A stretch of DNA of 64,000 bases. Source: Fimbriimonadaceae bacterium (lineage in GTDB: Bacteria; Armatimonadota; Fimbriimonadia; Fimbriimonadales; Fimbriimonadaceae). A program made the translations under genes and the position numbers. The notes below the pieces were generated by a model. That model saw only the letters and a list, made by a program, of their open reading frames with translations. It ran no database searches and was not told the DNA's origin. Of the stretch, positions 18,972 through 24,260 are shown piece after piece; within the stretch, counting starts at the first letter, position 1; each line of letters starts with the position of its first letter. Where the stretch lies: contig CP075364.1 in assembly GCA_019454105.1 (NCBI GenBank), positions 2,111,362-2,175,361 on the forward strand, in the 5' to 3' direction.

Positions 18972-19763
18972 CTACCGACCCGTGAACAAAAGAGCCGTCA
19001 AGAAGTAGTTGGCGACATAGATGAGGACCATCGAGATGACAACCGTGTTCGTCGTCGCCCGGCCCACTCCGACCGCCCCCTCGCGCGAGCGGAGCCCCTG
19101 TTGGGCCGCCACGACCGCGATGATGGCCCCGAAAGCGACCGTCTTGACCATCCCCTTGAAGAGGTCGCCTGACTCCACCCACTGACGGATCGACGTCCAA
19201 AAAGCGCCCTCGGGCACCCCTCCACGGTATACCGAGACCAAGAATCCGCCTGTCACACCGGCATAGACGCCGACCAGGCACAGCATCGGAAGGGTGACGA
19301 CGGCCGCGATCAACCGCGGGACGACCAAGTAGCTGACAGGGTTGACATTGAGAGAGCGCAACGCGTCGATCTGCTCCGAGACGGCCATCGTCCCGATTTG
19401 GGCCGCCATCGCCGAACCCGCCCGGGCCGCCACCATGATCCCGGCGAGAACAGGCGCGATCTCGCGCGTGACGGCAAGGCCGATCGCAGCCCCGGCCAAG
19501 CTGGAAGCCCCATACCGGACAAGCAATTCGGACGAGTACAGGGCGAGCACTGCCCCCGAGGCGAAAGTGGTCAGCGCGACGATCGGCACCGAATTGAGAC
19601 CGATGAAAGCCATCTGGCTCAAGGTCTCAGCGGCCTCGAAGGGCCGCGCGATCAGGCGGCGCAACGACTCGGCCAGGAGGAGCGCGCACTCACCGACAAA
19701 CGTCAAGACAGCCCCGACCGCCCCTCGCGAAAGGGCCGACTCAGCGCCCGGTCTTTTGGCCAT
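18972..19763 (-). CDS. mlaE: MlaE family ABC transporter permease
   Basis: A 263-residue integral membrane protein of the MlaE family, which moves phospholipids between membranes of diderm bacteria. Hallmarks are REIAPVLAGIMVAARAGSAM and GTMAVSEQIDALRSLNVNP. Family length is usual. The partner ATPase (MlaF) and the MCE protein (MlaD) are not in this window. TAGTCT at 19771-19776 (complement) ends 7 bases before the ATG. Confidence 0.92.
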   Translation of the reverse strand: MAKRPGAESALSRGAVGAVLTFVGECALLLAESLRRLIARPFEAAETLSQMAFIGLNSVPIVALTTFASGAVLALYSSELLVRYGASSLAGAAIGLAVTREIAPVLAGIMVAARAGSAMAAQIGTMAVSEQIDALRSLNVNPVSYLVVPRLIAAVVTLPMLCLVGVYAGVTGGFLVSVYRGGVPEGAFWTSIRQWVESGDLFKGMVKTVAFGAIIAVVAAQQGLRSREGAVGVGRATTNTVVISMVLIYVANYFLTALLFTGR

Positions 19764-19831: not shown

Positions 19832-19999
19832 ATGCTCGTCAAGGTCATTGTTTCAGTCGTCATCGGTGCGGCGGCAGGTGGGGCCTACGCCGCCTGGATG
19901 GCCAGCATGAAGACCGGGTGACTGAGTTGCCAACAACCGGCGGTGCCGGTTGTAGTTGGGGCCGTCATTGGCCTGATCTCCGCCTTGGCCTCGCGATGA
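19832..19999 (+). CDS. Candidate small membrane selenoprotein (in-frame TGA at 19919)
   Basis: Read with TGA 19919-19921 as selenocysteine, this is a 55-residue protein with two hydrophobic segments (about 3-24 and 37-53) joined by a loop holding TG-U-LSC, that is U30-x-x-C33. A hairpin follows the TGA at 19930-19959. The readthrough frame ends with TGA 19997-19999, overlapping the hemW ATG at 19996 (ATGA), as coupled genes do here. Without readthrough the ORF would end at 29 codons and leave a 75-base gap, yet that gap continues as hydrophobic membrane sequence. The shape recalls small two-helix proteins with Cys loops (DUF6132-like), but weakly. No sel genes are in the window, so Sec use by this organism is untested. 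Confidence 0.55.
19930..19959 (+). promoter_or_regulatory. SECIS-like hairpin
   Basis: Lower stem CCAAC (19930-19934) pairs with GTTGG (19955-19959); upper stem AACCGGC (19935-19941) pairs with GCCGGTT (19945-19951). The loop is GGT (19942-19944), and a 3-base bulge lies on the 3' side. The upper stem begins 13 bases after the TGA and the loop starts with G and contains GT, in line with bacterial SECIS rules. Confidence 0.5.
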
Positions 20000-21114
20000 T
20001 GGAACCCGTCGCCGTCTACGTCCACACACCCTTCTGTCCAAGCAAGTGCGGCTATTGCGACTTCAACAGCTACGCGATGTCGGGCGGCATCGTAGACCGG
20101 ACCGTCCAAGCGATGCTGGCGGAGATTCATCGGTCGCCGTGGCGAGGAAGGCCCGCCAAGACTGTGTTCTTCGGCGGCGGCACCCCGACATTCCTGTCAC
20201 CCGGTCAATTGACTGGACTCTTGAAGGCAGTCCTCGAGGTTCACCCACCCATCCCGGGAGCCGAAGTGACGAGCGAGGCCAACCCCGGAACGGTCGACGC
20301 CGAAAAGTTCGACGCCATGGTCGAAGCCGGATTCAACCGGCTCAGCCTCGGAGCTCAAAGCTTCGACACTGGCGACCTTCACCGGCTCGGCCGAATCCAC
20401 GAGGCCACCGACGTCGCGAAGGCGGTCGCGGCCGCCAGACGGGCCGGCTTTCGATCTCTGAACATCGATCTGATGTTCGCCTTGCCAGGACAGTCGATGC
20501 GGGGATGGAGAACCAACCTTGAATTGGCTCTGGGCCTCGCGCCCGACCACCTGAGCCTTTATTGCCTCACGATCGAGCCAAACACCCGGTTCTATCGCCA
20601 CCATCTTCGAGGGGCCCTTGAGCTCCCCAGCGAAGAGACGCAAGTCGCCATGTACGATCTGGCCGTTCAAAGGTGCCAGGAGGCCGGCCTTGATCACTAC
20701 GAGATCTCGAACTTCGCACGGCCAGGCCACGAGTCTCGCCACAACCTCTGTTACTGGCGAGCCGAGGAGTACCTGGCATATGGGCCCGGAGCTGTAGGAT
20801 GTTTCGGATCAGGCGACGATCAGCGAACTCGGTACACCAACACGAAGCACCCGGAACGCTATGCCGAGGCGGTCGAATCAGGTTTGCGCCTCTGGTGCGA
20901 TGAAGAAGCGGTGGACGGGCACACAAGGCGCACTGAGGCCGTCATGTTGGGACTTCGCTTGTCCGAAGGGTTGGACGTCCAATCAATGAATCTCGATCCT
21001 GACCCGATGGTCAAGGCCGTGGAGAGAGGCTGGGCCGCCGTCTCAGAGGGACGGTTCCGATTGACCGACCAGGGCCGCCATTGGTGTTCCGAGGTCGCCA
21101 CGTGGCTCATATGA
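19996..21114 (+). CDS. hemW: HemW-type radical SAM protein
   Basis: A 372-residue radical SAM enzyme of the HemN/HemW family. The [4Fe-4S] motif is CPSKCGYCDF (CxxxCxxC), followed by FFGGGTPT (GGTP-type SAM motif), TSEANPGTV, RLSLGAQSF and the C-terminal HemN_C winged domain. The short N-terminus before the cluster and the length fit HemW (heme chaperone) rather than oxygen-independent coproporphyrinogen oxidase. The start is ATG 19996 or 19999, overlapping the stop of the small upstream ORF. Confidence 0.9.
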   Translation: MMEPVAVYVHTPFCPSKCGYCDFNSYAMSGGIVDRTVQAMLAEIHRSPWRGRPAKTVFFGGGTPTFLSPGQLTGLLKAVLEVHPPIPGAEVTSEANPGTVDAEKFDAMVEAGFNRLSLGAQSFDTGDLHRLGRIHEATDVAKAVAAARRAGFRSLNIDLMFALPGQSMRGWRTNLELALGLAPDHLSLYCLTIEPNTRFYRHHLRGALELPSEETQVAMYDLAVQRCQEAGLDHYEISNFARPGHESRHNLCYWRAEEYLAYGPGAVGCFGSGDDQRTRYTNTKHPERYAEAVESGLRLWCDEEAVDGHTRRTEAVMLGLRLSEGLDVQSMNLDPDPMVKAVERGWAAVSEGRFRLTDQGRHWCSEVATWLI

Positions 21115-23273: not shown

Positions 23274-24260
23274 GTGGATCGGGTCGACCTGACAATCATC
23301 GGAGGAGGGCCTGTCGGGCTCTTTGCCGCCTTCTATGCGGGCATGAGGGGCATGAGCGTCCGGATCGTGGACAGCTTGGCCGAGCTCGGAGGGCAACTCG
23401 TGGCCCTTTATCCGGAGAAGTATGTCTTCGACATGCCTGGCTTCCCCAAGGTTTTGGCCCGAGACTTGGCCAACAGCCTGATCGAACAAGGGACGCAGTT
23501 CGGCCCCGAAGTCGTGCTGAGCCAGACGGCCGAGCGGCTGGATTCCGACGAGGAAGGCTACACGATCGTCACCCGGTCTGGACTCCATCTCCCGACCCGG
23601 ACCGTTGTCATCTCGGCAGGGGCAGGGGCGTTCAGTCCGACCAAGCTCGGTGTCGAGCGAGAGGACGACTTCGTCGGCCAAGGCGTGAGCTATGGAGTGA
23701 AGGCCAAAGCCGATTTCGCGGGGAAAAGGTGCCTGATCGTCGGCGGCGGGGACAGCGCCTTCGACTGGGCTCTGAACCTGCACAATGTGGCTGAGTCGAT
23801 CTCCATCGTCCATCGGCGCGACCAGTTCCGTGCCCATGAAGAGACGGTCAAGGAAGTCGCCGGACTTGGCGTGCCTTTCCGCCTTTGGAAGGTCGTGAAA
23901 GCCTTGCACGGCGAGGGCAGGCTCACTTCCGTGACGCTGGAAGACACCAGGAGCAAGGAGACCGAAGAAATCGCGTGCGAGGCCCTGGTCGTCAACATCG
24001 GCTTCAAGTCGTCTCTCGGCCCGATCAAAGAGTGGGGCTTGGAGCTCAATAGGAATCAGATCCTCGTGGACCATCTGGGCCGAACCAACCGTCCAGGAGT
24101 CTTCGCGGTCGGGGACGTATGCGACTTCGACGGCAAGCTCAAGCTCATCGCGACTGGGGTCGGCGAGGCCGCCACCGCCGTCTGTGTCGCCAAGACGATG
24201 ATCGATCCCGGGGCGAAACTCTTCCCAGGACACAGCTCCGACATGGAGCAGTTCGCTTAG
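23274..24260 (+). CDS. Ferredoxin/flavodoxin--NADP+ reductase, thioredoxin-reductase type
   Basis: A 328-residue FAD/NADPH protein of the TrxR-like FNR class. FAD motif [20 protein letters not shown]-type [11 protein letters not shown] near the end, and NADPH motif [15 protein letters not shown] are present. Where thioredoxin reductase has CxxC after the NADPH motif, this protein has SAFDWA, so it is not a thioredoxin reductase. The start is the GTG at 23274 with a -10 hexamer 9 bases upstream. It diverges from mnmG. Confidence 0.92.

Follow-up and report, generated by a model that had tools for sequence, protein, structure and literature searches.

Evidence for selenocysteine in a small two-helix, DUF6132-related membrane protein encoded upstream of hemW in Armatimonadota

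Comparative genomics was used to analyze a short reading frame upstream of hemW in the window, the 64,000-nucleotide stretch of a Fimbriimonadaceae genome that consists of a single 2.74 Mb contig. The in-frame UGA at position 19919 is very probably decoded as selenocysteine (Sec) in a member of a DUF6132-related protein family, an assessment that leaves the proposed relay function aside. Comparative genomics strongly supports the Sec decoding, about as well as sequence allows. In the proposed mechanism, the ribosome with SelB and tRNA-Sec would insert Sec at UGA 19919 under the direction of a 9-bp hairpin with a GGU loop, and the product would be a 55-residue, two-helix membrane selenoprotein. 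Sec and one nearby cysteine (C33 here) would form a selenol/thiol pair in the short interhelical turn. As a minimal thiol/selenol relay in the membrane, the protein would transfer electrons between a reductant of the thioredoxin type and a substrate in the membrane or envelope.

The selenoprotein gene occupies 19832..19999 of the forward strand, encodes 55 residues followed by a TGA stop and translates as MLVKVIVSVVIGAAAGGAYAAWMASMKTG-U-LSCQQPAVPVVVGAVIGLISALASR-stop. Translation reproduced the 55-codon frame of the initial annotation, with its single in-frame TGA at codon 30 (19919..19921) followed by L-S-C. The start, the length and the Sec/Cys position of this frame are the same in homologs. 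The product is DUF6132-like and has two hydrophobic helices, the first at residues 2-25 (19835..19906, forward strand) with a glycine-rich GxxxG pattern and the second at residues 37-53 (19940..19990, forward strand). The two-helix membrane shape proposed at the outset agrees with the hydropathy profile of 81 members and with the AlphaFold2 model, which places helices at 2-25 and 37-53 at low confidence (pLDDT 67; low to moderate within the first helix). Foldseek, run with this weak model, and a PDB sequence search returned no related structure. A hemW-like radical SAM gene follows at 19996..21114 on the forward strand. Its ATG (19996-19998) and the terminal TGA of the selenoprotein gene (19997-19999) form the ATGA overlap that had been described, and the distance to hemW if TGA 19919 terminated translation is 74 nt, correcting an earlier count of 75 bases. 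The two genes would form one unit in which the selenoprotein is translated first, and the ATGA overlap suggests that readthrough would bring ribosomes to the start of hemW. Upstream, a divergently oriented gene (18972..19763, reverse strand) for a membrane permease with an MlaE-like sequence bounds a 68-bp intergenic region and is not kept as a neighbor in relatives. A gene for a flavoprotein that by its sequence resembles TrxB/ferredoxin-NADP reductase lies at 23274-24260 of the window, 2.2 kb beyond hemW.

A search of 101 related genomes at E values up to 0.1, where the weakest matches are doubtful, detected homologs in 55 genomes. The existence of Cys homologs at the TGA position had been set beforehand as a test, and they were found: the codon at the Sec site in 48 aligned homologs is TGA in 36 and TGC or TGT in 12, with no other codon present. 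Sec/Cys30, G12 and G16 are invariant in this alignment, and P39 is almost invariant. Conservation past the TGA was a second preset test. In pairwise comparisons of the TGA genes, amino acid identity rises from 0.38 upstream of the UGA to 0.50 downstream of it and drops to 0.09 beyond the final stop, so conservation is not lost at the TGA. A profile search extended the family to 102 of 291 Armatimonadota genomes (E up to 0.01), and many of the matches, distant families included, carry exactly one TGA.

The TGA form follows the presence of SelA, which was found in 35 of the 36 TGA genomes versus one of the 12 Cys genomes (Fisher p = 6e-9). Both exceptions come from partial assemblies: G035 has the TGA form and no SelA match in a 74% complete assembly, and G049 has the Cys form with SelA in a 77% complete assembly. 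A genus-mate of G049 (locus L035), G030, has the TGA form. The switch occurs within genera, as in g4, where G050 has TGA with SelA and G003 and G032 have Cys without SelA, and in g6 (G005 versus G034). The hemW tree, whose deep branches are poorly supported, requires at least seven U/C changes, and an independent-pairs test on the tree had too few supported pairs and is under-powered. SelA is also present in six genomes of the same family in which a homolog was not detected (G001, G008, G013, G019, G057 and G060), so Sec decoding is presumably maintained there by other selenoproteins.

The window genome itself encodes the full decoding machinery. The presence of selA, selB, selC and selD was a further test set in advance, and all four genes were found. 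SelA scored 387 bits, SelD 341 bits and a full-length SelB 323 bits, above its cut-off; tRNA-Sec scored 74.6 bits and was reported by ARAGORN as tRNA-SeC with anticodon tca. The SelD frame contains a single TGA, within HLVSCAGUASKLGP, a context with the UxxK motif given for Sec-type SelD (PMC13188914). Besides the new candidate, the genome therefore encodes a known selenoprotein. The SelD gene (L136:1531; G000:C1:1687082; CAGUASK) resembles the new gene in having an in-frame TGA and a loop hairpin, in this case of the GGUC type 36-37 nt downstream of the TGA. It differs in encoding selenophosphate synthetase, an already known selenoprotein, and in its longer spacing, with the loop at nt 36-37 versus nt 24 in the new gene.

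The bacterial SECIS-type hairpin of the window gene lies at 19933..19953 on the forward strand and has a 9-bp stem (19933-19941/19945-19953) and an apical GGU loop (19942-19944). The initial annotation had recognized the hairpin and its GGU loop; the stem it gave, 19935-19951, is the inner 7 bp of the 9-bp stem. Published criteria for bacterial SECIS elements are a 3-9 nt loop (G in the first two loop positions), a 4-16 bp stem, a spacing of 16-37 nt and an energy of at most -7.5 kcal/mol (PMC13188914), and the window hairpin falls within all four, with 20 nt between the UGA and the loop and a fold energy of -17.3 kcal/mol. It also shares the 3-nt loop with G first, the 9-bp upper stem and the 20-nt spacing of the consensus model (PMC13188914, Fig. 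2A). No Rfam SECIS match was found in this stretch. RNA folding had been suggested as a check; the 9-bp stem folds, yet compared with dinucleotide shuffles it is not unusual on its own (z = -1.3). Free-energy z-scores are weak for single sequences, and the comparison of homologs at a fixed site, which departs far from chance, carries the hairpin. Counting the U of the UGA as nt 1, 32 of 36 TGA genes and 0 of 12 Cys genes have a stem of 5 bp or more that puts the loop exactly at nt 24-26. Such a stem together with the loop G occurs in 31 of 35 TGA genes versus 0.5 expected from synonymous codon usage, and a 32-sequence alignment shows no variation in the wobble bases at nt 21, 24 and 30. In L014 and L022 a compensatory change turns the closing C-G pair into U-A, and the outer pairs covary. 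In L116, Sec and the PAVP motif are one codon further apart and the stem is wholly new (AGGGACC/GGTTCCT), yet the loop is still at nt 24. The stems of L108, L117 and L051 are likewise new and lie at about the same distance from the UGA.

Distant families of the same protein depart from the consensus model in having a larger, different hairpin, in which nt 14-20 pair with nt 52-58 (97% of cells paired) and C-G, U-A and G-C alternatives occur at one position. The larger hairpin after the TGA was observed in L085, L090, L091, L092, L095, L098, L100, L101, L103-L106 and L119-L121.

The window protein has the sequence U30-L-S-C33, which places the partner Cys codon at 19928..19930 on the forward strand, three residues after Sec (U+3). 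The UxxC motif first noted here stands for the window protein. It was dropped as a family-defining motif once partner positions were counted, since family-wide the partner sits on either side of Sec, with CxxxU or CxxxxU versus UxxC or UxxxC spacings. A Cys is present only after Sec/Cys (+3 or +4) in 54 of 81 members, only before it (-3 to -7) in 24, on neither side in 3 and on both sides in none. The Fisher p of 1e-17 for this exclusion ignores relatedness and is not to be taken at face value; at least six changes of side are required on the hemW tree. Because the two sides are mutually exclusive, we strongly infer that Sec/Cys and its partner are a working redox pair. The simplest reading is a selenylsulfide/disulfide pair that would require one partner and would not tolerate, or not need, a second.

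Gene neighbors suggest what this pair may do. The Sec gene follows the end of a thioredoxin gene at a distance of 7-31 nt in nine genomes of family f8 and two of f35 (L098, L100, L101, L104, L105, L106, L119, L120, L121, L090 and L095), and in family f13 a Cys member lies a few hundred bases upstream of a thioredoxin gene. The thioredoxin link is not seen in the window's own family. Positive charges are gathered in both tails, away from the Sec loop, and the positive-inside rule therefore favors a loop on the outside; the f8 thioredoxins, however, look cytosolic. The L095 thioredoxin begins with a lipoprotein-type signal, and that of L090 with a hydrophobic stretch. Chances are about even that the protein is a thioredoxin-coupled membrane relay, its partner and direction being read from the gene neighbors only. 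The data lean toward the broader view of a new Armatimonadota-wide selenoprotein family with two SECIS architectures and a resolving Cys, nearly always a single partner, that has moved repeatedly from one side of Sec to the other; its 55-residue, two-helix product may rank with the smallest membrane redox devices coupled to thioredoxin.

A less likely but serious alternative is a selenoprotein, such as a HemW-linked membrane chaperone, in which the Sec/Cys pair serves to bind or carry a metal, haem or selenide. Metals are often handled by small membrane Cys proteins, hemW lies next downstream in 30 of 48 homologous loci (usually less than 60 nt away), and FmdB-type zinc ribbons are encoded near some distant members. 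Loci adjoining hemW, however, are common only within the window's own Fimbriimonadales family, and the arrangement may reflect inherited synteny; hemW was downgraded as a functional clue because it is mostly absent outside that one family. Thioredoxin or OsmC neighbors in other families, and the presence of exactly one partner Cys with no further conserved ligand, also count against a binding role.

The junction with hemW admits a mainly regulatory role, in which Sec readthrough would couple the selenium supply to hemW translation. The ATGA overlap in the window and the near-zero gaps in many hemW-linked loci fit such coupling, but Cys genomes that lack SelA retain the overlap, hemW is not a neighbor of many Sec members, and the protein sequence itself is conserved. 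These observations make a primarily regulatory function improbable.

The same comparisons bear on whether Sec is inserted at all. Under the standard code TGA 19919 would be an ordinary stop, leaving a 29-residue single-helix peptide and an untranslated hemW leader, and the window hairpin is only mildly stable beyond chance. Termination there is nonetheless very improbable: amino acid conservation rises after this TGA and drops sharply at the second stop, the frame of Cys homologs continues uninterrupted across the position, TGA tracks SelA and the hairpin is confined to TGA genes. Readthrough by a near-cognate tRNA such as that for Trp would yield a full-length protein without selenium and accommodates a readthrough frame that is clearly under coding selection, but a replacement residue that is always Cys and never Trp or another, the association with SelA and a SECIS-type hairpin at fixed spacing leave it hardly credible.

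The family so decoded was placed relative to known proteins with Pfam. The best match of the window protein is DUF6132 (PF19628) at 12-13 bits (13.0 with Cys in place of Sec), below the gathering cut-off of 23.2 bits. Both are about 60 residues long and residues 2-55 align to positions 5-58 of 60; DUF6132 differs in having Cys where the window protein has Sec. Two distant Sec homologs, in genomes G254 and G255, score 24.1 and 24.2 bits against DUF6132, over the cut-off, carry CAGGGUPMTSNP and match the profile of the new family with E values of 8e-10 and 3e-10. Because these homologs pass the DUF6132 cut-off and also match the new profile, the window family and DUF6132 are, judged by sequence, one superfamily, a relationship claimed at the superfamily level only. 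The weak DUF6132 lead in the initial annotation was right at this level, with the window protein itself below the cut-off.

A search of the open-licence literature turned up no description of a Sec form of DUF6132; the sole paper there containing the string DUF6132 is unrelated. There is no NCBIfam model for the family, and a search for DUF6132-like relatives in plasmids found none. A two-helix DUF6132-like family is absent from Table 1 of the 2026 prokaryotic selenoprotein catalogue (PMC13188914) and from the deep-Sep study (PMC12013277). The family is new to these catalogues, and an earlier report may exist outside the open-licence literature. Like the catalogued UxxC/CxxU redox selenoproteins (PMC13188914), its members combine Sec with a nearby Cys and a hairpin after the UGA, and Cys replaces Sec in genomes without Sec machinery. 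Unlike them, the new family has a partner Cys that switches sides of Sec.

Annotation normally misses short genes with an internal UGA, and the present analysis therefore adds a whole selenoprotein family to a phylum whose selenoproteins are almost absent from the open-licence papers searched. For DUF6132, whose function is unknown, the candidate redox pair and the thioredoxin neighbors are a first functional clue. In changing sides, the partner Cys offers a natural experiment on the requirements of a selenol/thiol pair, and the many U/C switches with and without SelA supply naturally matched variants for studying the retention of Sec.

A contig scan with a narrower alignment identified 11 named loci, all with titles of Fimbriimonadales/-aceae or Armatimonadetes save one archaeon. 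This record, L125 (JADZEW010000008.1), is titled 'Methanoregulaceae archaeon' and is probably a misnamed bin; its protein is at least 93% identical to that of the Fimbriimonadaceae bin L126.
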